DNA of 64,000 nt from Acidobacteriota bacterium (GTDB taxonomy: Bacteria > Acidobacteriota > Vicinamibacteria > Vicinamibacterales > JAKQTR01): contig JAPKZO010000006.1 of assembly GCA_026393755.1 (NCBI GenBank), positions 186,001-250,000 on the forward strand, written 5' to 3'. Shown here in pieces: positions 2,294-63,747 of this stretch. Both the position numbers and the translations under genes were made by a program. Each line of letters begins with the position of its first letter. Positions within the stretch are counted from its first letter, which is position 1. The notes under the pieces were generated by a model. That model ran no database searches and was not told the origin of the DNA. It was given only the letters and a program-made list of their open reading frames with translations.

Positions 2294-4630
2294 ATGAAGC
2301 TCGATGACACCTACTACTGGGACGGGCCGCTCCCCGAAACGCAGGCACCCGCGTCGCCCCCGGAGCCCTGGGGCGAGACCAAGGTTGTCGGCAAGCCGAT
2401 CGTCCGGATTGACGCGTTCGACCGCGTGAGCGGCAAGGCCGTCTTTCCGTCGGACGTCGTGCTCCCGGACATGCTGCACGCCGCGATCCTGTCGTGTCCG
2501 CACGCCCACGCGATGGTCAAGACCGTCGACACGAGCGACGCCGAGAAGATGCCGGGCGTCCAGAGCATCCTCAAGGATGGGGTGGCGGGAACCAACATCC
2601 CGTGGTTCAGCGGCGGCGGAGGGTTCGCGAGCCGGTTGTTCGATTCGCATGCCCGATACCAGGGCGACGAGATCGCCGCCGTCGCCGCCGACACGATCTA
2701 CCAGGCATGGGACGCGATTCGCGCCATCAAGGTCGACTACGACGTACTCAAGCATGTGACCAGCGTCGAGGACGCGCTGAAGCCGGATGCACCGGCGGTT
2801 CGCGAAGGCGGCAACAAACCCCAGGCTCCCGCGGCGTACCAGCGGGGCGACGTGGCGGCTGCCTTCAAGACGGCCGACGTAGTGGTCGAGTACTCGTTCA
2901 GCACCCCGTATGAACTGCACAACCCGATGGAGCTGCACGGCTGCGTGGCGAAGTGGGATGGGCACCACCTCACGATTTGGGAATCGACGCAAGGGGTCTA
3001 CGCGGTCCAGGCCACGATGGCGCGAGCGCTGGGTCTGCCGTTGGCCAATGTGCGGGCGATCGGCCACTACATGGGCGGCGGATTTGGCGGCAAGCTCGAC
3101 GCGGGCAAGTACAGCGTGATGGCGGCACTGCTCGCCCGGAAGACCCGGCGGCCGGTCCGGCTCTTCGTCACGCGGGAGCAGGAATGCCAGTCGATGGGTA
3201 ACAGACCCGGCAACACCATCACGCTCAAGGTGGGCGCGAAGAAGGACGGCACTCTCGTCGCCTTCCAGTCGTCGGTTGTCGGATCGGGCGGGGCGTATTC
3301 GGGCAGCGGCACGGGCGGCGTCGACTTCGTCATCCGTGAACTCTACAAGTGCTCGAATGTCCGCTGCGAGAACCAGAGCGTCTACACGAATGCCGGGCCG
3401 CAGCGGGCGTTTCGCGGGCCGGGGCATCCGCAGGGGGCGTGGGCGTTGGAGATTGCCATCGATGCGCTCGCCGCGAAGCTCGGGATGGATCCGCTGGAGC
3501 TGCGCCGGAAGAACTTCACGTCCTTCAGCCAGTCGCGCGATGGGAATCCGCCGTACACCTCCAACGGCCTGGTGCGCTGCTACGACGAAGGCGCCAGGGC
3601 GTTCGGGTGGACGGAGGCGCGGGCGCGCGTGCCACAGACCGGCCACATCAAGCGCGGCGTCGGCGTGGCAGCCGGCATGTGGCAGGGCGGGAATGGCGGG
3701 CCGCCGTCGACGGCGATCGTCAAGCTCTTCTCCGATGGCAGCGCCAATCTGAACCTGGGTGCGAGCGACAATGGGTGCGGCACCAAGACATGGGGTGCCC
3801 AGATCCTGGCCGAAGAACTGGGCGTGCCCGTCGATCGCATCTCGATCGAGCATGCCGACACGGGCACCACGCAGTTCGCGACGCCGAGCGGCGGCAGCAA
3901 GACCGTGCCCACCGAGTCGCCGGCCATCCGCGCCGCGGCGCTCGATGTGAAGCAGCAGTTGCTGGCGATGGCGGCCGATCATCTCAAACTGCCCGCATCG
4001 GATCTCGAATTGCGAGGCGGTGAAGTCGTGTCGAAGAGTGATTCGTCGAAGAAGGCCGCCCTCGGTCAGATTCCGGCGTTCAGAAGCCGATCGCTGCTGG
4101 TGGGCGTCGGCTATCGGGGACCCAATCCCCCCGGCAAGGCGATCAATCCCTTCGCGGTCCAGTTTGCCGAGGTCGAGGTCAACACCAAGACGGGCGAGAT
4201 CAAGGTCCTGCGTTTCCTGGCGGCTCACGACAGCGGCCGCGTCATGAACCTGAAGACGTTCCAGAACCAGGTGTTCGGGGGCGTGACGATGGGGATTGGA
4301 TTCGCGCTCACTGAAGACCGGGTGATGGATCACAAGCAACTTGGCCGGATGCTGTCGGCCAACCTGCACGATTACAAGTTGCCGACAGCGCTCGATGCGC
4401 CGGCCGATAAGACCATCGTCGTCGTCGATCCGCACGACACCGAGTGCAATTCGACGGGAGCGAAGGGCGTCGGCGAGCCTGCCACGATTCCAACGGCGGC
4501 CGCGGTGGCCAATGCCGTGTTTCACGCGACAGGCCTTCGGCTGACCGAGGCACCGATGAATCCGTCGCGCGTGCTTCAGGCGCTCGCGGCTCTGAAACCG
4601 GCCTCAAAGGGCCAGAAGGGAGGAGAGTGA
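2294..4630 (+). CDS. Molybdopterin-binding catalytic subunit, PaoC/XDH-like
   Basis: A 778-residue large subunit of the xanthine dehydrogenase/aldehyde oxidase family that binds Mo-cytosine dinucleotide cofactor. The N-terminal hammerhead domain (about residues 40-150) is followed by the cofactor-binding domain; GHYMGGGFGGK lies near residue 256 and the catalytic Glu is in KGVGEPAT near residue 724. It has no signal of its own, consistent with export on the Tat signal of the [2Fe-2S] partner, three bases upstream. By analogy with PaoABC it oxidises aldehydes to carboxylic acids in the periplasm; the true substrate (aldehyde, purine or other N-heterocycle) cannot be told from the sequence. Confidence 0.88.
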   Translation: MKLDDTYYWDGPLPETQAPASPPEPWGETKVVGKPIVRIDAFDRVSGKAVFPSDVVLPDMLHAAILSCPHAHAMVKTVDTSDAEKMPGVQSILKDGVAGTNIPWFSGGGGFASRLFDSHARYQGDEIAAVAADTIYQAWDAIRAIKVDYDVLKHVTSVEDALKPDAPAVREGGNKPQAPAAYQRGDVAAAFKTADVVVEYSFSTPYELHNPMELHGCVAKWDGHHLTIWESTQGVYAVQATMARALGLPLANVRAIGHYMGGGFGGKLDAGKYSVMAALLARKTRRPVRLFVTREQECQSMGNRPGNTITLKVGAKKDGTLVAFQSSVVGSGGAYSGSGTGGVDFVIRELYKCSNVRCENQSVYTNAGPQRAFRGPGHPQGAWALEIAIDALAAKLGMDPLELRRKNFTSFSQSRDGNPPYTSNGLVRCYDEGARAFGWTEARARVPQTGHIKRGVGVAAGMWQGGNGGPPSTAIVKLFSDGSANLNLGASDNGCGTKTWGAQILAEELGVPVDRISIEHADTGTTQFATPSGGSKTVPTESPAIRAAALDVKQQLLAMAADHLKLPASDLELRGGEVVSKSDSSKKAALGQIPAFRSRSLLVGVGYRGPNPPGKAINPFAVQFAEVEVNTKTGEIKVLRFLAAHDSGRVMNLKTFQNQVFGGVTMGIGFALTEDRVMDHKQLGRMLSANLHDYKLPTALDAPADKTIVVVDPHDTECNSTGAKGVGEPATIPTAAAVANAVFHATGLRLTEAPMNPSRVLQALAALKPASKGQKGGE

Positions 4631-50622: not shown

Positions 50623-50631
50623 GGCCGCGTT

Positions 50632-52119
<1,488 letters not shown>

Positions 52120-52176
52120 GCGACCATCGACGGGAGTGCGCCGCGAGCGTCCGGCGTGCGACATGGGGAGATCGAG

Positions 52177-53382
52177 ATGACAGATGTCTGGGCTCGCGCG
52201 GCGTTGTGGCTCGGGTTGGCGCTGGTCGCCACGCTGCTCTCGATCCGGCTCCGAGTGGCAACCGCCCTCTCGGAGATCGTTGTCGGCACCGTGGCGCAGC
52301 TCCTCATTGGGGCGTTCATCGGCAAGGCGCTGCTCGGAACCTCTGAGGCCTGGATCACCTTCTTGTCGGGCACGGGCGCCATCCTGCTCACATTCCTGGC
52401 TGGCGCCGAACTCGATCCCACGATCTTCCGCGCCAAGTGGAAAGAGTCGCTCGGCATTGGCTTCGTGAGTTTCTTCGCGCCGTTCCTGGGATGTGCGGCG
52501 TTCGCGGCCTGGGTGTTGCACTGGACGCCGCAAGCCAGTTGGCTGGCTGGCGTGGCGCTATCGACGACGTCGGTGGCCGTAGTTTATGCGGTGATGCTCG
52601 AACTGGGTCTCAACAGCACCGACTTTGGCAAGGCATTGCTCGCGGCGTGCTTCGTCACCGATCTGGGCACGGTGCTGGCACTGGGGCTCATCTTCGCGCC
52701 GTTCTCGCTGCGAACGGTCGCCTTCGTGGGCGTGGGCGCCGTGGCCGTCGTGGTCCTTCCCTGGCTGACACCACGGTTCTTCCGGGTCTTCGGCGGCCGG
52801 CCATCCGAACTCGAAGCGAAGTTCCTGCTCCTCGTGCTGTTCGGCCTGGGCGCCCTCGCCACCTGGGCGGATAGTGAAGCCGTCTTGCCCGCTTATCTGG
52901 TTGGCATGGTGCTGGCCGGAACCGTCGGCAAAGATCACGCGCTCATCCGGCGCCTCCGGACCGTGACGTTCGGCCTGCTTACGCCGTTCTACTTTATTCG
53001 TGCTGGCTCGTTTGTATCGGTGCCCGCACTCCTGGCGGCGCCCACCGGCGTGCTCGGCTTGCTCGCGGCGAAACTGGCGACCAAGACCGTCGGCGTGTGG
53101 CCGATGGCCCGCCTGTTCCGCTATCCGCGCACGGAAGCCGCCTACACGACGTTGCTGATGTCAACCGGGCTGACCTTCGGCAGCATCTCGGCCCTCTTCG
53201 GCCTCACCCACGGCATCATCACCCAGACGCAGTACTCGATCCTCATCGCAACGGTCATCCTGAGCGCGGTCGTCCCAACGCTGGTTGCCAATGCCTTCTT
53301 TCTTCCGCGATACTTGCTTCCGCCGCCTGCGCCGTCGCGGCCAGAATCGGCCGACGTCGCGCTGGGAGGAGGAGAATCATGA
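52177..53382 (+). CDS. CPA2-type cation:proton antiporter (KefB/NapA-like)
   Basis: A 401-residue membrane protein with 11-12 helices. FLAGAELDP and the TSVAVVYAV and FVTDLGTVLAL stretches fit the CPA2 exchange site (Thr/Ser and Asp in crossed helices). No cytoplasmic NAD-binding domain. ATG at 52177 with GGAGA upstream. Antiporters of this kind are known partners of fluoride riboswitches; it may exchange fluoride, sodium or potassium for protons. Overlaps the UspA gene by four bases. Confidence 0.86.
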   Translation: MTDVWARAALWLGLALVATLLSIRLRVATALSEIVVGTVAQLLIGAFIGKALLGTSEAWITFLSGTGAILLTFLAGAELDPTIFRAKWKESLGIGFVSFFAPFLGCAAFAAWVLHWTPQASWLAGVALSTTSVAVVYAVMLELGLNSTDFGKALLAACFVTDLGTVLALGLIFAPFSLRTVAFVGVGAVAVVVLPWLTPRFFRVFGGRPSELEAKFLLLVLFGLGALATWADSEAVLPAYLVGMVLAGTVGKDHALIRRLRTVTFGLLTPFYFIRAGSFVSVPALLAAPTGVLGLLAAKLATKTVGVWPMARLFRYPRTEAAYTTLLMSTGLTFGSISALFGLTHGIITQTQYSILIATVILSAVVPTLVANAFFLPRYLLPPPAPSRPESADVALGGGES

Positions 53383-53840
53383 CGCAGCAGACGGACAGTG
53401 TCAGCCGCGCGGGCATGATCCCGAAGCGAATCCTGGTGGGCTTCGACGGGTCGCCCTTTGCCGAACAGGCCTTTGAGATGGCGCTGAGCTTGGCGGCACT
53501 CGCTGGCGCCCGGCTGGGCGTCGTCTCGGTGGCCACCCTTCCTGAACCACCCGGGGAGGTTGAGACCCAGGCGACCCTGGAATCAGCCGCCGAGCACTAC
53601 GAAGCGGCCTACGAGAATCTGCGCCGGCGTGCTGAGGACCGTGGCCTCACTCTGGAGACGCGCATCCTCGTCGGACATCCCGCCGAGCAGATCATCCGGC
53701 TCGCGGCCAGCACGCAGGTGGATCTGATTGTCGTTGGCCATCGCGGCCGGTCCCGTATCAGTGAATGGATATCCGGTTCCGTGTCGAAGCGGGTCGTCGG
53801 CCACGCGCCGTGCTCCGTCCTGGTGGTTAGGAGTCGTTAG
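53379..53840 (+). CDS. Universal stress protein UspA
   Basis: A 153-residue UspA-fold protein. GFDGSPFAEQAFEMAL near the start and the ATP-binding-type GHRGRSRISEWISGSVSKRVVGHAPCSVLVV at the end are typical. GGAGGAGG lies just before the ATG, which overlaps the antiporter stop. UspA proteins occur in other fluoride-riboswitch operons. Confidence 0.92.
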   Translation: MTQQTDSVSRAGMIPKRILVGFDGSPFAEQAFEMALSLAALAGARLGVVSVATLPEPPGEVETQATLESAAEHYEAAYENLRRRAEDRGLTLETRILVGHPAEQIIRLAASTQVDLIVVGHRGRSRISEWISGSVSKRVVGHAPCSVLVVRSR

Positions 53841-53914
53841 CCTGGTCCTCGGCCTCCTCGCCGTGCGGGCGGGCCTGGTGGTGGCGAAGTCGTGGATGGT
53901 CGGATGAGAGAACC

Positions 53915-54676
53915 ATGAAGCTCGAAGCCGAACAAGTGCTGTGCCGGTTCCACCTGTCCAACTTCGTCCGTCATCGTGACGAGCCGTTGTACCAGTGGAT
54001 TGTCGAGGTGGCCCGGCACGATGGCTTGCAGGGAGCGACCGTGCTCAAGGGCATCATGGGGCTTCGGCCAGACGGGTCGATTCTGCAGGAGACCCGATGG
54101 GCGCTGTCCCAGGAACTCCCGGTGATCGTCGAGGTGGTTGACGGACCGAAGCGCGTGGAAGCGCTGCTCGCACGCGTTGAGCCCGTCTTTACCGAAGGCG
54201 AGATCACCCTCGAACGGGCGCACGTCGTGCTCTATCGCGGCGAGGGAGACAAGAACGCGGGCGTGATTCCAGTCGCGGATGTGATCGCGTCGGTGGACGA
54301 CAGCGCGGCGTGGGAGGTGAAGACGATGAAACTGCCCGAACAAGGCGTGTTGCTCAGGATCTTCATGGGGGAGGCGGACCGCGAGCCGGGACGAGACCGG
54401 CCCCTCTACGAGGCGATCGTGCGACGCGCGAGGGAAGCGCATCTGGCTGGCGCGACAGTGCTTAAGGGCCCACTGGGCTACGGCAAGAACTCACGGGTGC
54501 ACTCCGCGAAATTGCTGGAAGTGTCGACCGATCTGCCCATCGTGATCGAAATTGTCGACGCGGAGGACAAGATCAAAGCGTTCCTGCCGGTCGTCGACGA
54601 ACTGGTCACCGAAGGGATGGTGACGCTCGAGAGCGTGCGGGTGCTCAAGTATGTCGCCTCACCGGCCAGACGCTGA
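53915..54676 (+). CDS. Tandem DUF190 (PII-like) protein
   Basis: A 253-residue protein of two DUF190 domains (about 1-110 and 135-250), each with the pattern RPLYE.IV..AR...L.GATVLKG..G and ending EGMVTLE..RVL. DUF190 domains have a PII-like ferredoxin fold and are often found with CrcB fluoride channels and antiporters, probably as nucleotide-sensing regulators. It lies 74 bases after UspA in the fluoride-responsive operon. Confidence 0.86.
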   Translation: MKLEAEQVLCRFHLSNFVRHRDEPLYQWIVEVARHDGLQGATVLKGIMGLRPDGSILQETRWALSQELPVIVEVVDGPKRVEALLARVEPVFTEGEITLERAHVVLYRGEGDKNAGVIPVADVIASVDDSAAWEVKTMKLPEQGVLLRIFMGEADREPGRDRPLYEAIVRRAREAHLAGATVLKGPLGYGKNSRVHSAKLLEVSTDLPIVIEIVDAEDKIKAFLPVVDELVTEGMVTLESVRVLKYVASPARR

Positions 54677-54712
54677 GGCCGGCGACACCTTCAGCGTCAT
54701 GGAGCAGCCCTC

Positions 54713-55948
54713 GTGACAGACATCCCTGGCCAGACATCGAAACCTACCAGACAGGACGGGGCGGACGCTCCCACAGAGCAGGATCGCAACGTCGTGGCAT
54801 TGGGCTGGGTTGCGTTTTTCGGCGGGTTTGGGCAGGACATGATCCAGCCGATCCTGCCGTTGTTCTACTCCTCCGTGCTTGGTCTGAACAAGGAGTTCAT
54901 CGGACTGATTGAGGGCTCGTTGATGACGGTCGTCAGCCTGATGAAGATCGCGGCCGGCTATCTCTCCGACTTCCTCGGAAAGAGAAAGGCTATTGTCTTC
55001 GTCGGTTATGCGCTGTCGGCGGCGGCGCGGTTCTCGCTGGGCCTGGCGGGATCGGGGGCGGTCGTGTTTGGCCTGCGGCTCACGGATGGTGTAGGTAAAG
55101 GCCTCAAGGATGCCCCACGCGACGCTCTGGTGGCCAGTTCGGCGGGAACGAGGAAGCTGGGGTTCGCCTTCGGCGTGCAGCGAACTCTGGACACGCTTGG
55201 CTCGGTGGCCGGTCCTCTGCTGACCTTCGGGTTGCTGCGGCTCTGGGTCAACCGTCCGGGCAAGTACCAAGCGATATTCTTCCTCGCCGGCATCGTTGCC
55301 GCCATGACGTTGCTCATCATCGGGCTGGTGGTGCGAGAACGGCAAGCGGCCGTGAAGACGCAGCGCATCTCGCTCGCCGTGTTCCGAGGGCCGTTCGCCG
55401 GCCTTCTCGCGGTGATGCTCCTGTTCACGCTGGGCAACTCGTCTGATGCGTTCATCATTCTCCGCGCCCAGGACGTGGGCGTCGGCGTCGTGCTGATCCC
55501 CGTGGTGTATGCCCTGTTCAACCTCGTGTCCGCCGCCGCCGCCATCCCAGCCGGCAGGCTCTCCGATCGGATCGGCCGCCGCCGCGTGATCGCCTGCGGA
55601 TGGGCCGTGTATGCGATGGCCTACCTGGGCTTTGCCCTGGCCAGCAGTCCCTGGATGATGTGGGTGCTGTATGCCTTCTACGGCCTGTTTTATGCGCTCA
55701 GCGAAGGTGCGGCCAAGGCGATGGTCGCCGAACTGGTGCCAGAGGAGAGCCGAGGCACGGCGTACGGACTGTACAATGCCGCGGTTGGCGTGATGGCGCT
55801 TCCGGCGAGTCTGATCGCGGGCCTCCTGTGGCAACGGATTTCACCGGCTGCCCCATTCGCGTTCGGCGCCGCGCTGGCGGGGCTGGCGCTCGTCGGTTTG
55901 TCGTTCGTGCCGCCGGCAACCGCAAGTCGTCATGCGCCATCCACCTGA
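54713..55948 (+). CDS. Major facilitator superfamily transporter
   Basis: A 411-residue MFS protein with 12 helices. DFLGKRKAIV between helices 2 and 3 and DRIGRRRVIA between 8 and 9 are the MFS loop motifs; GVGKGLKDAPRDALVA near residue 125 places it near the tetracycline/fosmidomycin-type branch often labelled MFS_1. GTG start 36 bases after the DUF190 gene, so probably in the same operon. Substrate unknown. Confidence 0.85.
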   Translation: MTDIPGQTSKPTRQDGADAPTEQDRNVVALGWVAFFGGFGQDMIQPILPLFYSSVLGLNKEFIGLIEGSLMTVVSLMKIAAGYLSDFLGKRKAIVFVGYALSAAARFSLGLAGSGAVVFGLRLTDGVGKGLKDAPRDALVASSAGTRKLGFAFGVQRTLDTLGSVAGPLLTFGLLRLWVNRPGKYQAIFFLAGIVAAMTLLIIGLVVRERQAAVKTQRISLAVFRGPFAGLLAVMLLFTLGNSSDAFIILRAQDVGVGVVLIPVVYALFNLVSAAAAIPAGRLSDRIGRRRVIACGWAVYAMAYLGFALASSPWMMWVLYAFYGLFYALSEGAAKAMVAELVPEESRGTAYGLYNAAVGVMALPASLIAGLLWQRISPAAPFAFGAALAGLALVGLSFVPPATASRHAPST

Positions 55949-55958
55949 GACAGACGCG

Positions 55959-56939
55959 ATGCCGCGTCGTAACTCTGACGAGTTGCGGGAAGAGCGACGC
56001 CATTCGAGCGGTCGCGAGTCGTGGATCTATCGCGCCAACCGGCCGGATGACCTTCGTGGACGCCATGCCGATCTGCTCGGGTCCGCGTTGGGTCCGGACG
56101 AGCAGTTCCATTATTTGCTCTATGCACCGATCTTCGACGGTGTGGGAGGTCCCTTCAACATTCGCGCGACGCCCGCGTCGCACGCCGTCGCTGTCGTGCA
56201 AGGGCGGCTGATCATTACCGCCGATACCCATTGCAAGGGCGTGCCCGCCGATGTCCATACGGTGCCCTTCACCGGGATTCTGTCGGTGGAACTTGGCGCC
56301 GCGCTGCTGCTTGGTTGGCTCAAGGTCTGCTACGTAAACGCCGGCCAGGTGACCTCGACCGTGGTGAGCTTCAGCACGACCGGTAGCCATCACTTCGAGG
56401 CAGTCGTGCGTGCGTACAGGGCGTTGACCGCTCGTCAACCGACCCAGGAGGGAGGCGCCATCCCGAGCGCGGACCTGTGGCGGTCGACGCCGCCCTATCT
56501 TCGCAGCGCGACCGAACCGCTGCTCCTGGAGGACGAGTCTGTCGTCTCTGCCACCGAGTGGAGGGAATCGTGGCAACCGCGTAAGCATGGATGGAGTCGC
56601 GTCCCTTCGTGCGCGTCCACGCCAGGCCTTCTCCTGCTCACTCGTGCGGGGCTCCTGTGGGCGTCGAGCGAGCCTCGTGTGCGGCCGGACTTGGTGAGTT
56701 ACGGCGTCAACGTCACGTCCATCAATTGGCAGGCGCTCCGCTCGGTATCGGCCGAGCACGCCGAAACGAGTGGGGCTGCAGCACGACTTCGCCTCGTGCT
56801 GGAACGACAGGGCGTCTCCACACATATCGAGATCCCGCTCGACGATGACGCGGGTCAGTCAGCCGACGCTGCGGTGGACATGATGGAGCGGTTGCGGGCA
56901 TCGGCGAACGCGCCGGCGCGGCTCCATCGCGGCCCGTAG
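55959..56939 (+). CDS. Protein of unknown function, two PH-like halves
   Basis: A 326-residue soluble protein not recognised. Two halves (about 30-160 and 185-320) each look like beta-sandwich or PH-type domains: GPFNIRATPASHAVAVVQGRL, ITADTHCKG, then TPGLLLLTRAGLLWASSEP and VRPDLVSYG. No signal or membrane segment. The ATG at 55959 is chosen; one at 55932 overlaps the MFS gene. Its place at the end of the fluoride-responsive operon suggests a linked role. Confidence 0.55.
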   Translation: MPRRNSDELREERRHSSGRESWIYRANRPDDLRGRHADLLGSALGPDEQFHYLLYAPIFDGVGGPFNIRATPASHAVAVVQGRLIITADTHCKGVPADVHTVPFTGILSVELGAALLLGWLKVCYVNAGQVTSTVVSFSTTGSHHFEAVVRAYRALTARQPTQEGGAIPSADLWRSTPPYLRSATEPLLLEDESVVSATEWRESWQPRKHGWSRVPSCASTPGLLLLTRAGLLWASSEPRVRPDLVSYGVNVTSINWQALRSVSAEHAETSGAAARLRLVLERQGVSTHIEIPLDDDAGQSADAAVDMMERLRASANAPARLHRGP

Positions 56940-56951
56940 CGCCCAAATCGA

Positions 56952-57330
56952 TTACCTGATCACCACGCGGTCCAGCACCTCGAGTGTCTCCGGATTGACG
57001 GTTTCGAGACGCACGCGCGGCCCCTCGACATAGAACAGGCAGATGGCGTGCTGCGTCGAGAACGCTCGCACGAACGCCGACCAGGGTGTCTGCTCCTGCG
57101 CGTAGTAAGGCGCGCCGGCGGCACCGTTGTTGATCTGGAAGAATGGCCGCTGCATTCGGACCCGCGGCTTGTCCCAGCCCTCGGGGCAGATTGGCACCGA
57201 ACTGTCCAGTCGCAGGCGGTTGTAGTTGTGCTCATCGCCTGTCAAGACAGCCAGCCCTCCGGGGTGGCCGTGATGTTGGAGTACACCCGCGGAATGGGCG
57301 TCGATCCCACCGTGGGTGCTTGCGCACCGA
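56952..57330 (-). pseudogene. C-terminal piece of a calcineurin-like phosphoesterase
   Basis: About 95 residues (TGDEHNYNRLRLD..., NNGAAGAPYY..., FYVEGPRVRLETV) match the end of a secreted metallophosphoesterase, with the GDEHNYNR metal motif. The upstream part is missing: the preceding frame encodes only a signal-peptide-like stretch (ATAVSIGVAAAIITTLG) fused to the 5'-nucleotidase remains. An internal deletion and frameshift are likely. Confidence 0.65.
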
Positions 57331-58521
57331 TCTGAGATTGCGGCGCGGCGAGCGTCTGATGCGTACCGAGGGTGGTTATGATCGCCGCAGCCACACCGAT
57401 CGACACGGCCGTCGCGAGCATGACGAGGTCGCCGCGTGTCACCGTGCCGCGCAGGAGCGGCGCGCGGATACCGCCCATGTTCTCCATCGCGAGGTCCACA
57501 TTGAAGGTGTCTCGAAGGGCATCGGCCATCAAGTTGTACTCTGCGAGATCGTCGCCCCGGCTGCTGAACTCGCCGGCAGCTTGCCCCATGACCTCGGCGT
57601 ACCTCGGCGAGATGGGCTTCCAGAACTCGCCGACGACGGCGGCGACGCCGGCATCCTCGGGAATGTCGGCGGTGACCGGGATCAGCCGGGCTCGATAGCG
57701 TTCCACGTGCCAGACGCCCTTCTCGTCTTTGTCGAACAGGAGGTCGAGCCGCCCAGTTCGCCGCCCCACTGGTGCGCTTGCACGATCACGGTTCCGTTGA
57801 CAGCCCTCGCCTGGAGATCCTCCGAGTGCCAGATGAGTTCCCCCGACGGCAGGCGCGAGTGCGAATGGCTACCGACGATTACGTCGATGTCCGGGACCTG
57901 CTCGGCCAACCGCTGGTCGACTTGCTCGCCGGCGTGGGAGAGGAGGACGATGATGTCCGCTTGCGGGCGGAGCGCTGCGACCGCCTGTCGGGCACTGGCG
58001 ATCTCATCCCCCACCTCGATGGCTTCCTTGCCGGCCGGGTAGGTGGCCGATTCGTGGGCGAGCAGGCCGAAGACGCCAATTCTGAGCGACCCCAGCGTCT
58101 TGACAACGTAGGGGGGCACGAGTGGTTTCCCGCTGGCGCGATCGGTCGCGTTCGCACACAAGAGTTGGTATTTGGTTGCCCCCACCAGTTTCCGTAACTG
58201 TGCTGCGGTGTTGTTGAACTCGTGGTTCCCGAGCGTCCCCATGTCGTAGCCGGCTGCGTTCATGGCCGCCACGTCCGCCTCGCCGTGGTATTCGCTGGAG
58301 AACGGTGTCCCGTCCGAATAATCGCCGAGATCCACAAACCAGACGGGCGTGCGTCGTGAGTCGAGTTCCTGTCGGATGCACTTGGCAATGGTCGTCCGGC
58401 GGGCAATTCCCCCGATGTCCTTGTAGACCCGCAATCCCTGCAGCGCTGCTCCTGATGCCGACGAAAGCGATCCTGGCGCAGGATCGCTACAGAGAAAGTA
58501 GAATCGCCAACCAGAGCACAA
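57242..58521 (-). pseudogene. Decayed 5'-nucleotidase-type metallophosphatase
   Basis: The first part (58440 to about 57760) encodes GGIARRTTIAKCIRQ, FVDLGDYSDGTPFS, TLGNHEFNN, VLLSHAGEQ and VGSHSHSR, the metal-site motifs of UshA-like phosphatases, but the usual first motif NDxHG is missing. At about 57747 the frame shifts (a G appears lost in CTGGGCGG) and continues as GRLDLLFDKDEKGVWH to MENMGGIRAPL. The C-terminal substrate domain is truncated into unrelated sequence. Start, middle and end are all damaged. Confidence 0.72.
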
Positions 58522-58768
58522 TCAGAATGCACGCACCGCGAACCCAGTGTCTCCAACTCGGAGCCGTTCGGTTCAGGCGCACCCAGGGATACAGCGCGAT
58601 CCATGCTGCACCGGTCGCTGCAACGAGGCACGCCATCATGAGGAGCGCGAGGTCCCCGGACGGGCTGGTCGACCGCCGAGCCGGAGCACCGTCTTCGCAC
58701 CTCGACGGTGAGACAACCCGTCGCGCCCGCCCGCGCCGCAAACGACGTTCGTCGATAAATGGCAACAC
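58487..58768 (-). CDS. Two-helix membrane protein behind a fluoride riboswitch
   Basis: A 93-residue protein: a basic N-terminus (FIDERRLRRGRARR), then two membrane helices (ALLMMACLVAATGAAWIAL and GACILIVLWLAILLSL). The GTG start at 58768 has GGGAGGG just upstream; the frame is open further upstream only because it runs through the riboswitch. No family recognised, and too short for a four-helix CrcB/Fluc channel. Position directly after the aptamer implies a role in the fluoride response. Confidence 0.62.
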   Translation of the reverse strand: MLPFIDERRLRRGRARRVVSPSRCEDGAPARRSTSPSGDLALLMMACLVAATGAAWIALYPWVRLNRTAPSWRHWVRGACILIVLWLAILLSL

Positions 58769-58855
58769 ATGACCCTCCCTGCGCCCGAGATCGAGCGACG
58801 CGAGGTAGGAGTCATCGGTCCTGCACGCAGGACAGTTCAGGCGAACTCCACCGCC
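58766..58855 (-). promoter_or_regulatory. Fluoride riboswitch with translational output
   Basis: Aptamer 58855-58805 on the minus strand: GGCG/CGCC (58855-58852 with 58843-58840), GTCCTGC/GCAGGAC (58833-58827 with 58824-58818), and the long-range GGAGT/ACTCC (58849-58845 with 58812-58808), then CGATGACTCCTAC. ATGACTCC can instead pair with GGAGGGTCAT, which contains the ribosome-binding site of the 93-residue gene, so binding fluoride should free translation. Confidence 0.88.
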
Positions 58856-59029
58856 ATACGGACGACCACCGGCCCGCACCTGGCGCGACACGCCCGCTCG
58901 TGTGACACGAACGGGAAGACCAGAGAGCAGACCCGCCAGAGCCACATCACAAGGCCCGTGCTACTGCTGGATGTTGTGGAGGATGATGGGAGGGCGTCAA
59001 CCGATGAGTCTCCCACCCATAGCCTCCGG

Positions 59030-59080
59030 GCAGGAGTCATCAGCCGCAGACGCGGCAGTTAAAAGGTGAACTCCATCACC
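59030..59080 (-). promoter_or_regulatory. Fluoride riboswitch, tandem copy over a decayed gene
   Basis: GGTG/CACC (59080-59077 with 59068-59065), GCCGC/GCGGC (59056-59052 with 59047-59043) and GGAGT/ACTCC (59074-59070 with 59037-59033), ending CTGATGACTCCTGC. About 175 bases separate it from the next aptamer. The stretch between holds no convincing gene: GGAGG-CT-ATG starts a 7-codon frame, and a 67-codon frame (58837-59040) runs into the next aptamer. Confidence 0.88.
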
Positions 59081-59093
59081 TAAACGATCAAGT

Positions 59094-59238: not shown

Positions 59239-60582
59239 TCATACTGACGCACCTCGCGACGGGCCGGGCAGGTATGAGAGCAGTTCCGGGAGTTCGCGCA
59301 GGAGTAGCGTCGCACCGGAGAAGTCGGTATCACGAGTGACGTCGCATGGCACAATCACGCATGGCATGCCCGCCGCCCGCGCGGCCGCGAGGCCCGCAGG
59401 GGCATCCTCGACCACAAGGCAGCCGCTTGGCTCCACGCCTAGCCGAATCGCGGCCTCGAGAAACACGTCAGGCGCGGGTTTGCCGCGAGGCACTTCCGCG
59501 CCAGACACGACGAGGTCAATGCTGTCTCTGAGGCCGACACGGTCCAGCAAGGCACGGATAGACCCGTGGTCGGACGACGACGCCACGGCCACTAGATAGC
59601 CCCGTCGCCGTAACTCCAGAGGTACGTCCGGCACGCCGGGCATCTGCCGTGGGCCCTCTCCCACGCGCCCAGCGACGGCAGCCGCGTTTCGGCGGCAGAG
59701 TTCCTCCTCGCTCTCCTGCAGACGATGCCGTCGTTTCAGCACGCGGAACATGTCATAGTCGGTCACGCCGCAGAACTCCACCCGATCGTGTTCGTCGTAG
59801 GCCACGCCAAACGCCGCCAAGACCTGGCGAGTCGCCGCTGCATGAATGCCCTCGGTATCGACGAGCAGTTCATTCATGTCAAAGACGACGGCGCGAACTC
59901 CCGCCAGGCGAGCCCGTGCGTGAGACGGCTGCGGCCTCGCGTCATGCCGACTCATTGGAGTAGCGTCGTGCCGGCCACCTGGAGGCGATGCGACCGTCTT
60001 GGTGAGCACGTGGCCTGCGCCTGCCAGGCCGTCTTGCCACGACACCACAAGCGCCAGACGGGGCGGGAGCAAGCCGCGGTCGTCCCGCCACCGCGCCGCC
60101 ACCGCATGGGCCACTGCCACCGCGCGGCCTGGCACCCCTTGCGTCGCCTTCACCGCATCGGACAGCCACGACTGCGAAACCGCCGCCCGCGGCACGCCGC
60201 CGGCTTTCAGTGAGATACGCAGCAGCGTGCTGATATCTCGAGCGGCAAGGGGCTCGACGCGTACGGCCTCCATCCGCCACAACACACGTCTCACCGCGCC
60301 AAGATCCGCTGCCTTGGCGCTTCGCCCGGCGGCCAGCACGATTCCGTCCGCCTCCATCACGCGCCGAAGCCTTGCCGCCAGCGGCCTGGATACGCGATCG
60401 AAGGGGTCGGCCACGACCAGCCCTTGACGGGAGACGGCCGCCACAATCGCGCTCTTGCCAATGCCCGGCGGCCCGAACAGCAACACGCTGCGCCTCGCAT
60501 CGAGGAGGTTATTGACCCCCGCCACGAGCGCCTTCCGGCCAATCAAGCCATGTGTGGCCCCACCATTGTCGTCACGACTCAC
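59239..60582 (-). CDS. P-loop ATPase fused to a HAD-type domain
   Basis: A 447-residue protein. Residues about 12-200 are an ATPase domain (LLFGPPGIGKSA Walker A). Residues about 215-445 are a HAD hydrolase of the beta-phosphoglucomutase type: FDMNELLVDTE, SSSDHGS, RGKPAPDVFLEAA and VVEDAPAGLAAA. The first HAD motif has Asn where the second catalytic Asp is expected (DxN, not DxD). The GTG start overlaps the dynamin stop (GTGA). An internal ATG at 59955 could also make the HAD part alone. Third gene of the dynamin operon. Confidence 0.75.
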   Translation of the reverse strand: MSRDDNGGATHGLIGRKALVAGVNNLLDARRSVLLFGPPGIGKSAIVAAVSRQGLVVADPFDRVSRPLAARLRRVMEADGIVLAAGRSAKAADLGAVRRVLWRMEAVRVEPLAARDISTLLRISLKAGGVPRAAVSQSWLSDAVKATQGVPGRAVAVAHAVAARWRDDRGLLPPRLALVVSWQDGLAGAGHVLTKTVASPPGGRHDATPMSRHDARPQPSHARARLAGVRAVVFDMNELLVDTEGIHAAATRQVLAAFGVAYDEHDRVEFCGVTDYDMFRVLKRRHRLQESEEELCRRNAAAVAGRVGEGPRQMPGVPDVPLELRRRGYLVAVASSSDHGSIRALLDRVGLRDSIDLVVSGAEVPRGKPAPDVFLEAAIRLGVEPSGCLVVEDAPAGLAAARAAGMPCVIVPCDVTRDTDFSGATLLLRELPELLSYLPGPSRGASV

Positions 60583-61340
60583 GGCCCTTTCTCCACTTTG
60601 TCCACCGCGAGCAGGCGCTCGATGTCGCATCGCAACCCGTCGAGACGTTCCAAACGTTCGCGCACGGCTTGCTCCCCGGCAGCCTTGTGCTGGTACGCGC
60701 GTTCGAGAGCCCGGCCGACCGACTCGAGCAACGCCGACAGACGGCTCCGGATCTCGCTTTCCAGACCGCGGCGGCTCTCGAGCACGCGCTCGCTCAGATC
60801 GTTGGCGACCCGCGCGCTGTTGGTGGCGATCAGGTGGCGCACGTACTTCGCGGCACTCGACTTGACAGCCGCGATCCTCAGGCGCCGCGGCAGCGCCCAA
60901 TCGGCCACCCACGCCACGGGACCGGGTTCCGCCAGACGCAGAAGCTCTGCGAAGTGGAACTCGCTTGCCGCTCGAAAGCCTCGTTCCTCAATCAGGGCGG
61001 CGCCATCGGCGAACGCTTCCCCGGACGACGTCGCGATGCTTGCCATGAAGCCGTTGGCGAGATCCGCGAACCGCGTCATGGCCCGTCCATAGAGTGCCTC
61101 CGCTTCAGACTCCACCCCGCTAGCCCACTCGAGAATCGCCTCGGTCGCCACGTCCAGCGCAAAGTCCATGGCCTTCGCGCGATATGCCGGCCCGCGGCGA
61201 TACGGCTCGGCATCAATGCGCTGGTCGAGCGTGCGCAGCACGCCGGGCATCGCGACGGCCATGAACTCCCGTCGGGTCTGCACGAAACTCGTTGATAGCT
61301 CCGCCTGTTCCACGCCAAGCAGGGCGGACAACTCACGCAA
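60579..61340 (-). CDS. Stalk half of a dynamin-like protein, after the TAG
   Basis: About 253 residues, all-helical, with the coiled-coil character of a dynamin stalk (LESEIRSRLSALLESVGRALERAY..., REFMAVAMPG..., SGVESEAEALY). It follows in the same frame as the GTPase part, only eight codons after its TAG stop (61367-61365). A TTG at 61340 could start it separately; otherwise it is the second half of one 574-residue dynamin-like protein. Confidence 0.62.
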   Translation of the reverse strand: MRELSALLGVEQAELSTSFVQTRREFMAVAMPGVLRTLDQRIDAEPYRRGPAYRAKAMDFALDVATEAILEWASGVESEAEALYGRAMTRFADLANGFMASIATSSGEAFADGAALIEERGFRAASEFHFAELLRLAEPGPVAWVADWALPRRLRIAAVKSSAAKYVRHLIATNSARVANDLSERVLESRRGLESEIRSRLSALLESVGRALERAYQHKAAGEQAVRERLERLDGLRCDIERLLAVDKVEKGP

Positions 61341-61364
61341 TGCCTGCCCTGCGCCGGCGATGGT

Positions 61365-62303
61365 CTAGCGCAGGTGGCTCAACCGGCGTTCTGAATCGGC
61401 GAGGGGCTTGGTGAGTGCCGTGCGTTGCTCATCGATGTCGCGCAAGAGCTCACGAGCCAGCCGCGCGGCCCCGCGCAGGGCGGCCGCCGCCAACAAGTCG
61501 CTGGACCTGCCGGCCAACGCTCGCAGTTGGTCCTCCAGTTCGGTCCAGTCGCGCGAGCAGGAGCCCGCGAGCCGCTCAGCCGCGCTCACGAGCAGGGGCG
61601 GACCGATCTCGCGACCGAGCCGCCGGGTGATGACCGACTGCGCAAAGTCAGCTGCTTCCTGCAGATCGCCAGCGGGTCCCTTGTCGGCCTTGTTCAACAC
61701 GATCAGCAGCGGATCGAGACGACTTCCCATTTCCTCGACCAGCGCCAACTCGTCAGCTGAGACGGGCGGGTCGGCCCCGAGCACGACTAGCGCGGCATCG
61801 ATCTGCGGTGCAAACGCGCGGGTTACCTCAGTGCTCGCCGCGAAGACGGACCCGAGCCCCGGCGTGTCAATCAAACACAAACCCAATGCCAACAGCGGAC
61901 TCGGGACGCACAGCTCAACGGCTGCGACCCTCTTGGCATTGCCGGGATTGCGAGCCTCGGTGACGAAATCCGAAATCAACGCCGCATCGATGAGGTGGCT
62001 CGTTCCATCAAGCAGCTGCACGCGCGTCGTGAGCTCCGCGCCATACCGAAGCACGGTCACCGCCGACGTCATCGGCACCACGCCCGTCGGTAGCAGCGGT
62101 TGCCCAATCAGGGCGTTGAGCAGCGTGGACTTGCCTCGCTTGAACTGACCCACGCACGCCACAAAGAAACGGCCCTCGGCGAGTCGATCGGCGAGTGCGG
62201 CCGCCTCGTTGGCGATGGACTCCGCGCCCGTGTTGCTCGCGGATTCCGCTATGACGCGCAGCGGGGACGTGGTGCCTTCAGCCGTGGCGTGGCCATCGGT
62301 CAT
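61365..62303 (-). CDS. Dynamin-like GTPase, GTPase domain ending at an in-frame TAG
   Basis: 312 residues with a dynamin-family GTPase: G1 VGQFKRGKSTLLNAL near residue 52, G2 MTSAVTV near 78, G3 DTPGLG near 148, G4 LNKADKG near 207. The frame meets TAG at codon 313, in SHLR-stop-TIAGAGQALREL, then continues open to 60579. CAG to TAG is one change. Start ATG overlaps the stop of the upstream gene. Bacterial dynamins act on membranes, in fusion, repair or phage defence. Confidence 0.8.
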   Translation of the reverse strand: MTDGHATAEGTTSPLRVIAESASNTGAESIANEAAALADRLAEGRFFVACVGQFKRGKSTLLNALIGQPLLPTGVVPMTSAVTVLRYGAELTTRVQLLDGTSHLIDAALISDFVTEARNPGNAKRVAAVELCVPSPLLALGLCLIDTPGLGSVFAASTEVTRAFAPQIDAALVVLGADPPVSADELALVEEMGSRLDPLLIVLNKADKGPAGDLQEAADFAQSVITRRLGREIGPPLLVSAAERLAGSCSRDWTELEDQLRALAGRSSDLLAAAALRGAARLARELLRDIDEQRTALTKPLADSERRLSHLR

Positions 62304-63613
62304 AACACGTTCCTCGCCTGGTCATCTGGCTGCTCGTCGCCATATACGCGATCGAGCGCGGCCAGCTCTTCCTGAATGGCGTGGGCATCGGTCCCGCTGG
62401 AGTCGGGAGAATCGCGGATCATAAAGCGCTGCCGTTCGATGGACACTCGCAAGGGTTCCGCGTATTCGTGAAATCCGTTCTGCACCGCGGTGACGGCGTC
62501 GCGCATCCAACCACGCAGGCCGACGCCAAACGCCGAGAGTGCTTCCGCCAGCGACTGGCCGATCTGGGCCTCGAACTGGCGTTCGATCGCACGGATACGC
62601 AAGGACCGTGTGATCGCTGAGATGCCCGGTGCCGTGAGCGGCGTCGTGACCTCCGGCAGGACCAGGGCCGGCAACTCGCGTACGCGCCCCAGCAACTCGG
62701 TGACCGTGAGTGTCTCAGGACGTCCTAACAGGTCGGCGGCCCGTGCCAGAGATGCCGCCAAACCGGCCGCGAAGCGTCCCAACGCGATCCGAAGCTCCTC
62801 AGCCTGTGCGCCCACCGTGTCCCTCGCGGCTCGGCCAAGCGCTGACCTCGCGGCCTCCATGGTCAGTCCCGCCCACTGAGCGTCATTCACTAGGAGGACC
62901 GCGGCTTGCCGGAGAACGATCGATACTCCGCCGGCCACAGCTTGAGCCGCCTGTTCGCCCAGGGGACTGACATTTGCCGCCAACGCGCCGGCGCGGCGGA
63001 GTTTCGTCTCGGCATCAGCCTGGGATTCAGCGCTGACGAACACACGCCCCGCACCACGATCGGCGCTTGCTTGCAGGCTTGCGCGCACCGCATCGCGCAA
63101 CAAGACGATCTTCCGATGAATCGAATGCCACGCGCCATCCTGGTGCCGCTGACACATCGGCGCGATCTCCGCGGCGAACCACGCGTCGGTCAACGTGGCG
63201 TCCGCCCCCACGGCACTGACCGCGTGCACGGCGATGTCGAGGCCCACCTCGGTGCGCAGGTGTTCCGCGATGTATGTCGGCCTCAACTCCTCGACCGCGT
63301 TGTCGGCGAATGTCAGAGCCGTGCGGATGGCGAAGAGCGTGTCGACCTGCGGCGGCGGAATCGGGATCCCCTCGCGTTCCAGGACGCGCACCAGCCGGCT
63401 GCGGATACGTGCCAGGTAGTTTGCGGCCAGTCGCGCCTGGACCGGGGTCAGGGCCGTGCGATAACGGGGGAACGGCGACGATGAGCGTGACGCCGACAGA
63501 ACTGCTTCGATGCTCGACAGCAGCGTGTCGATGTGCTGGCAACTGACCAGCAGGTGGCGCTGCTGCGGTTCGTTGAGACCGACCCGACCCGCGTCGGCAG
63601 ACTTTGCCGTCAT
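62300..63613 (-). CDS. Helical partner protein of the dynamin operon
   Basis: A 437-residue protein, strongly helical and Ala-rich, without a P-loop. Stretches such as LLSSIEAVLSASRSS, RLAANYLARIRSRL and RAIERQFEAQIGQSLAEAL resemble stalk regions of dynamin-like proteins. AGGTGAG precedes the ATG at 63613; an upstream extension would run through the riboswitch and terminator. It overlaps the GTPase gene by four bases. Two-gene dynamin pairs of this sort occur in bacteria (for example LeoA with LeoBC). Confidence 0.6.
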   Translation of the reverse strand: MTAKSADAGRVGLNEPQQRHLLVSCQHIDTLLSSIEAVLSASRSSSPFPRYRTALTPVQARLAANYLARIRSRLVRVLEREGIPIPPPQVDTLFAIRTALTFADNAVEELRPTYIAEHLRTEVGLDIAVHAVSAVGADATLTDAWFAAEIAPMCQRHQDGAWHSIHRKIVLLRDAVRASLQASADRGAGRVFVSAESQADAETKLRRAGALAANVSPLGEQAAQAVAGGVSIVLRQAAVLLVNDAQWAGLTMEAARSALGRAARDTVGAQAEELRIALGRFAAGLAASLARAADLLGRPETLTVTELLGRVRELPALVLPEVTTPLTAPGISAITRSLRIRAIERQFEAQIGQSLAEALSAFGVGLRGWMRDAVTAVQNGFHEYAEPLRVSIERQRFMIRDSPDSSGTDAHAIQEELAALDRVYGDEQPDDQARNVL

Positions 63614-63647
63614 GCTCACCTGAGGCCACGGCGCGTCGCCACGGCGC

Positions 63648-63685
63648 AAAAAAAGACCCCTACCGGCATTTGCCCAGTAGGAGTC
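63648..63685 (-). terminator. Rho-independent terminator of the riboswitch
   Basis: Nine-base-pair stem (one G-U) GACTCCTAC / GTAGGGGTC with an inner GGCA/TGCC, followed by TTTTTTT (63654-63648), 35 bases before the first dynamin-operon ATG. Confidence 0.88.
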
Positions 63686-63727
63686 ATCTGTTCCGCCCTC
63701 CGGAACCTTCGGAGCGAACTCCAACGC
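63648..63727 (-). promoter_or_regulatory. Fluoride riboswitch with intrinsic terminator ahead of the dynamin operon
   Basis: Aptamer 63727-63677: GCG/CGC (63727-63725 with 63716-63714), TTCCG/CGGAA (63705-63701 with 63695-63691) and GGAGT/ACTCC (63722-63718 with 63684-63680), ending CAGATGACTCCTAC. The same GACTCCTAC (63685-63677) pairs with GTAGGGGTC (63663-63655) in a terminator hairpin followed by seven T. The two folds exclude each other, the usual fluoride-on switch. Confidence 0.9.
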
Positions 63728-63741
63728 ACGATCGCAGAATG

Positions 63742-63747
63742 ATTATA
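63742..63747 (-). promoter_or_regulatory. -10 box of the dynamin operon
   Basis: Perfect TATAAT on the minus strand; the predicted start near 63735 lies eight bases before the aptamer. No consensus -35 at 17 bases. Confidence 0.55.

Follow-up and report, generated by a model that had tools for sequence, protein, structure and literature searches.

Fluoride riboswitches in front of bacterial dynamin genes suggest a role for membrane protection in the response to fluoride stress

In many soil and groundwater bacteria a fluoride riboswitch is located in front of a gene for a dynamin-like protein. As dynamins bend, join or repair membranes, the arrangement suggests that the response to fluoride stress includes a so far undescribed branch that protects the membrane. 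The starting point was a stretch of 64,000 nucleotides from an Acidobacteriota bacterium (in the following called the window), for which a fluoride riboswitch before a dynamin operon had been predicted. This arrangement was confirmed well beyond the window, in dozens of genomes from at least two phyla. On sequence evidence, a regulatory link from the fluoride riboswitch to the dynamin is well supported, and we infer a membrane function for the dynamins that are switched in this way. The new part is the recurrent connection; the riboswitch and the protein family were both already known. In agreement with the original prediction, no link between fluoride or its riboswitch and bacterial dynamins is described in the literature that we searched; an earlier mention in a supplementary gene list may exist.

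The leader upstream of dyn1, the first gene of the operon, contains the following elements:

63613-63747, minus strand: leader RNA region with TATAAT box, divergent fluoride (crcB) aptamer and terminator, followed by the ATG of dyn1
63742-63747, minus strand: -10-like TATAAT box, assigned from the sequence, -35 box not found
63671-63738, minus strand: divergent fluoride (crcB-type) aptamer, given as the extent of the match to the model R1 (see below)
63712-63729, minus strand: P1 hairpin with the arms GUGCG (63729-63725) and CGCUC (63716-63712)
63724-63717, minus strand: P1 loop UUGGAGUU, holding the pseudoknot arm GGAGU (63722-63718)
63690-63706, minus strand: P3 hairpin, GUUCC (63706-63702) and GGAAC (63694-63690)
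63688-63677, minus strand: GAUGACUCCUAC, the 3' strand of the aptamer with the pseudoknot arm ACUCC (63684-63680), doubling as the 5' arm of the terminator
63648-63685, minus strand: intrinsic terminator with a 12-bp stem, GACUCCUACUGG / CCGGUAGGGGUC (63685-63655), followed by U7 (63654-63648)
63613, minus strand: start codon ATG of dyn1

From the predicted promoter the TATAAT box (63747-63742) could be confirmed, and GTATAATC is kept in a sister species of the same genus, but a promoter scan of the leader region found no sigma-70 -35 box and the promoter is therefore only half supported. In the pseudoknot, GGAGU of the P1 loop pairs with ACUCC, and since the ACUCC strand lies inside the 5' arm of the terminator, aptamer and terminator share the GACUCCUAC strand, as had been proposed and as the overlap at 63684-63680 confirms. 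ACUCC can thus pair either with GGAGU or with the terminator arm, both at once being impossible. The terminator stem alone has a folding energy of -21.3 kcal/mol, which was equalled by one of 200 shuffled sequences, and a terminator scan identified it as the sole terminator in the region (0.2 expected). Its stem is identical at the locus of the sister species (L009), and the alignment of both leaders shows similarity across the -10 box, the aptamer and the terminator. Without fluoride, the GACUCCUAC strand would fold into the terminator and transcription would stop. If fluoride is present (bound as a Mg-F complex in this class of RNA), the GGAGU/ACUCC pseudoknot would keep the strand, no terminator would form and the operon would be read.

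The Rfam model RF01734 does not call the leader of the window, as it gives 10.9 bits and a truncated alignment with a gathering score of 34 bits, the latter being a score set by curators and not a functional property. Because of this score below gathering, an independent covariance model, R1, was built from 33 other aptamers that pass Rfam and come from related loci and from the window, with the query leader and the leader of the sister species excluded. In the alignment of these 33 aptamers 94.6 percent of the cells are paired and covariation is found in P1, P3 and the pseudoknot, with 59 cells changed on both sides compared to 16 in shuffled alignments (none of 500 shuffles was as high). R1 matched the window leader with 33.9 bits and an E-value of 8.4e-11 (601 bp, filters off) and the sister-species leader with 35.2 bits and 3.3e-11, and a match by chance is very unlikely for the window leader. 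In the covariance-model search that had been suggested as a check, the leader would have been discarded on the Rfam score, an outcome that R1 reversed.

Fluoride was reportedly identified as the ligand of this riboswitch by Baker et al. in 2012. The window leader has the layout of a transcriptional fluoride riboswitch (Weinberg 2010, PMC2864571; PMC13273304), and it shares with the transcriptional type of RF01734 from Bacillus cereus and Thermotoga petrophila the GGAGU/ACUCC pseudoknot, P3, GAUGACUCCUAC and a terminator competing for ACUCC. It differs from the standard RF01734 riboswitch in a changed AACC junction and a mismatch in P1 (one U.U), besides its score below the Rfam cutoff. The AAC of this J1/3 junction is invariant or nearly so in the 33 aptamers and altered in the window (AAG) as well as in the sister species (GAGC). 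Another difference is the predicted target, which would be a dynamin gene here and is an exporter, an antiporter or a metabolic enzyme for standard fluoride riboswitches. Judged from its sequence the leader is best called a divergent relative of the fluoride riboswitch and not a standard member of RF01734, and it presumably binds fluoride.

Three genes follow this leader:

62300-63613, minus strand: dyn1-deltaG, long dynamin partner without GTPase domain, 437 aa compared to 700 aa in the sister species
60579-62303, minus strand: dyn2, dynamin-like GTPase (Dynamin_N, 2.1e-25) with an in-frame TAG at 61365-61367
59239-60582, minus strand: gene 3, small AAA ATPase that continues in frame as a HAD hydrolase, not a dynamin

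A three-gene dynamin module had been predicted here, and of this only dyn2 with its Dynamin_N domain stood, itself interrupted by the TAG, whereas dyn1 is without the GTPase domain and gene 3 encodes the AAA-HAD protein. The domain search found no Dynamin_N in dyn1 of the window, and the DNA alignment with the sister species revealed a 789-bp in-frame deletion. In the sister species both genes are intact, dyn1 with 700 aa (Dynamin_N, 1.8e-21) and dyn2 with 574 aa (Dynamin_N, 1.6e-27). The counterpart of gene 3 consists there of the AAA part alone (205 aa). As both dynamin genes of the window are damaged, the module has probably lost its function here or retains no more than an N-terminal domain and stalk.

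It is only slightly less than an even bet that the leader of the window is left over from a module in decay, whose riboswitch may still work while both dynamins are pseudogenes and the switch has no useful target, a reading that is compatible with the explanation that we prefer for the whole family. Besides the deletion in dyn1 and the TAG in dyn2, the changed aptamer junction and the P1 mismatch speak for it, as does a 5'-nucleotidase-like gene nearby that is also split across two frames. However, similar deviations of the leader precede intact genes in the sister species. Furthermore, comparison with the sister species gives a dN/dS of 0.29 for dyn1, and for dyn2 it is 0.17 in the part before the stop and 0.35 in the part behind it. 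With values still below 0.4 in the remaining parts the damage is recent or in part a fault of the assembly; the TAG itself could be an assembly error.

The window contains further fluoride elements:

59024-59089, minus strand: canonical fluoride riboswitch (Rfam 55 bits, E 1.6e-12)
58799-58864, minus strand: second fluoride riboswitch in tandem with the former (Rfam 40.1 bits)
50624-50700, plus strand: canonical fluoride riboswitch preceding an enolase gene (Rfam 36.6 bits)
50713-56939, plus strand: fluoride cluster of enolase, Na+/H+ antiporter, Usp, DUF190 protein, MFS transporter and a conserved unknown protein

The tandem riboswitches (58799-59089, minus strand) are 160 nt apart, and downstream of them a small protein (about 58490-58769) with two membrane-spanning stretches as judged by eye and the mentioned 5'-nucleotidase-like gene (57245-58521, minus strand) are encoded. 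The two frames of the latter hold a Metallophos part (57685-58521) and a C-terminal part (57245-57868), probably as the result of a frameshift. Although at least four fluoride riboswitches are found in the window's own genome, which is listed as 100 percent complete, it gave no match for CrcB and CLC, the two known families of fluoride exporters. The MFS transporter (54713-55948, plus strand) is kept in the fluoride clusters of other genomes and may be an exporter of fluoride that has gone unrecognised. A conserved protein without family or Pfam match is also shared between fluoride clusters (55932-56939, plus strand, in the window, 3908-4918 in L009 and 12496-13383 in L010). Between enolase and DUF190, L009 has a CrcB gene (2713-3105), and in the window this place is taken by the antiporter and Usp (52156-53840), the difference being an exchange of cluster modules. 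Antiporters are described to rank next after exporters as partners of the riboswitch (PMC11139923). A fluoride riboswitch together with enolase, uspA and crcB is also found in the tested operon for fluoride resistance from Enterobacter cloacae FRM, where fluoride raises enolase 176-fold and uspA 120-fold, but no dynamin is mentioned for this operon (PMC5533749), unlike in the dynamin loci described here.

To see how widespread the arrangement is, contigs of named genomes were scanned for dyn1. The 14 loci obtained belong to Acidobacteriota, to Planctomycetota and to MAGs with the label Gammaproteobacteria, and two MAGs of the last label also show a riboswitch before a dynamin. A riboswitch of Rfam grade is located immediately 5' of a full-length dyn1 in L011, L012, L014-L018 and L026-L028, and in L013 such a riboswitch heads an operon of antiporter, dyn1, AAA, enolase and dyn2. 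An extra dynamin-like gene is present 5' of dyn1 in L011 (7850-9715) and L012 (7847-9712), so that one fluoride cluster can contain up to three dynamins. In dyn2-type genes the distance from the riboswitch to the G-domain match is about 130-270 nt, on the same strand and across many families. The genes residing at these loci are known fluoride genes, namely enolase, CrcB, Na+/H+ antiporter, Usp and DUF190.

We then surveyed 396 Acidobacteriota genomes with PF00350, a profile made independently of these proteins, and counted matches of at least 70 bits as strong (n=45). Twenty-six of these strong dynamins, from 25 genomes, have a fluoride riboswitch no more than 1 kb upstream on their own strand, and with a limit of 6 kb the number is 33. 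By chance about 0.002 would be expected for the 1-kb linkage, as roughly estimated by hand for 45 dynamins and about 160 riboswitches on the two strands of 396 genomes with about 4 Mb each. For 10 of the 45 no riboswitch was found on the contig in the first survey, mainly in tandem clusters of two genomes (G125, G217) and in cases at a contig edge. Of the 122 sampled Acidobacteriota genomes having a riboswitch above the cutoff, 25 have a dynamin gene as its putative direct target. None of 22 weak PF00350 matches had a riboswitch, and the R1 scan of 20 of those loci was empty as well, but these proteins may belong to a different GTPase family, which limits their value as a control. Lower-scoring dynamins from Planctomycetota served as a second control and showed no riboswitch upstream, whereas all 13 close relatives from this phylum (L169-L181) have one upstream on the same strand. 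Short G-domain matches had also been considered as unrelated control dynamins and were dropped, as most of them sit behind fluoride riboswitches. Four relatives from the class Gammaproteobacteria were without riboswitch, one of them adjoining an enolase gene. The survey thus refutes the possibility, raised with the original prediction, that no second genome would have crcB-motif RNA upstream of a dynamin gene. The riboswitch is also clustered in the phylogenetic tree, with 12 changes of the label compared to 20.8 in shuffles, and dyn1 forms one supported group with a riboswitch in 12 of 13 rows; as this was a quick tree with several long branches, we used its broad pattern alone. In a search of plasmids we found one relevant record, Lichenicola cladoniae plasmid unnamed5 from a cultured alphaproteobacterium (L214, 7455-10521), on which the dynamin is divergent from riboswitch, crcB and usp, not behind the switch, and is located near transposases.

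The way in which the aptamer would control the gene is not the same at all loci. The ACUCC strand of the aptamer forms part of a terminator in the window and in L009, L057 and L138 as well as in L169, L170, L173, L174, L178, L180 and L181 from Planctomycetota. In L133, L134 and L137 the CUCC strand lies opposite a Shine-Dalgarno sequence instead, which we read by eye as control of the ribosome site. That one kind of gene is preceded by different platforms speaks for a maintained control by fluoride.

The GTPase motifs (G1-G4) are present in dyn2 of the window and in both dynamins of the sister species. Comparisons of profiles and folds, the latter with structure models in which confidence is moderate (pLDDT of 75 on average), place dyn1 and dyn2 among the bacterial dynamins and the mitofusins, together with BDLP, IniA and Cj-DLP1/2. 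The best Foldseek match for dyn1 is IniA from Mycobacterium (6j72/6j73), a dynamin fold that is stress-induced, as dyn1 would be, but IniA is induced by drugs and not known to be under riboswitch control. Both proteins have profile matches to Cj-DLP (5owv), and the arrangement in the sister species resembles Cj-DLP1/Cj-DLP2 from Campylobacter jejuni, as two dynamins are adjacent and the longer one has an N-terminal extension (PMC6104087). In dyn1 this extension comprises about 150-160 residues ahead of the GTPase domain, and the N-terminal 160 residues lie outside the profile and fold matches. In Cj-DLP1 an N-terminal assembly domain of 119 aa is required for pair formation (PMC6104087); it has the same place in the protein as the N-domain of dyn1, and the likeness seen here is one of position. 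In contrast to Cj-DLP1/2, for which no fluoride control is known, the dyn1-type N-domain can be encoded by a separate gene. Such free-standing genes for 156-165 aa are found in the fluoride clusters of L019 (9974-10441), L021 (9950-10438), L024 (8288-8755), L059 (8661-9155) and L127 (5415-5900), in L019 and L059 just 5' of dyn2. The N-domain is therefore separable, which fits a role in binding a partner.

We consider it likely that antitermination by fluoride turns on a dynamin pair, probably similar to Cj-DLP1/2, by which membranes are maintained when HF/F- stress sets in. The intact operon as found in the sister species would provide the long dynamin dyn1 with its separable N-terminal helical domain and the shorter dyn2, which may pair like Cj-DLP1/2. 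Alongside the other fluoride genes the pair would probably tether, seal or remodel a cytoplasmic membrane that is disturbed by HF/F-. Repair or remodelling of membranes during fluoride stress, one of two functions put forward in the original prediction, is thus plausible, while the other one, fluoride as a signal through mimicry of phosphate by AlFx/BeFx in GTPases, found no support here.

Less probable by a wide margin of our belief is that the dynamins are spare copies of a GTPase poisoned by fluoride (AlFx/BeFx or Mg-F), comparable to enolase or pyrophosphatase. Phosphate mimics made from fluoride do bind GTPases, and the dynamins share operons with a spare enolase. Mfn1 with GDP.AlF4 is mentioned in PMC6104087. 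However, most of the surveyed genomes have no second strong dynamin that could be replaced, and in the N-domain that stands alone next to dyn2 there is no GTPase activity for which a spare would be needed. Moreover, bacterial dynamins are usually dispensable. Still more improbable is that a dynamin pair with another purpose, for example phage defence or general membrane repair, only travels on a mobile island together with fluoride genes. The variable order and content of the clusters and the transposases near the dynamin of the Lichenicola plasmid would fit, but the riboswitch is located right before the dynamin gene and on the same strand in many families, which would not be expected from such hitch-hiking. 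That the leader is an unrelated terminator hairpin resembling an aptamer by chance, as the 10.9 bits from Rfam might suggest, is hardly credible in view of the independent R1 match (E 8e-11), the leader of the sister species and the context shared with canonical aptamers.

Fluoride-switched maintenance of membranes by a dynamin pair hence remains our preferred explanation, and on balance we slightly favour the wider view that such pairs are a dedicated and widespread arm of bacterial fluoride resistance, protecting or repairing the membrane, and common riboswitch targets in Acidobacteriota. The known defences against fluoride are export of the ion, pH balance and replacement of inhibited enzymes. 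A conserved link between the riboswitch and dynamins would mean that the membrane, too, is at risk from fluoride, or that its remodelling belongs to the response. For bacterial dynamins, few of whose natural triggers are known, it would also provide a chemically defined inducer for addition to a culture, allowing a direct test of their function.
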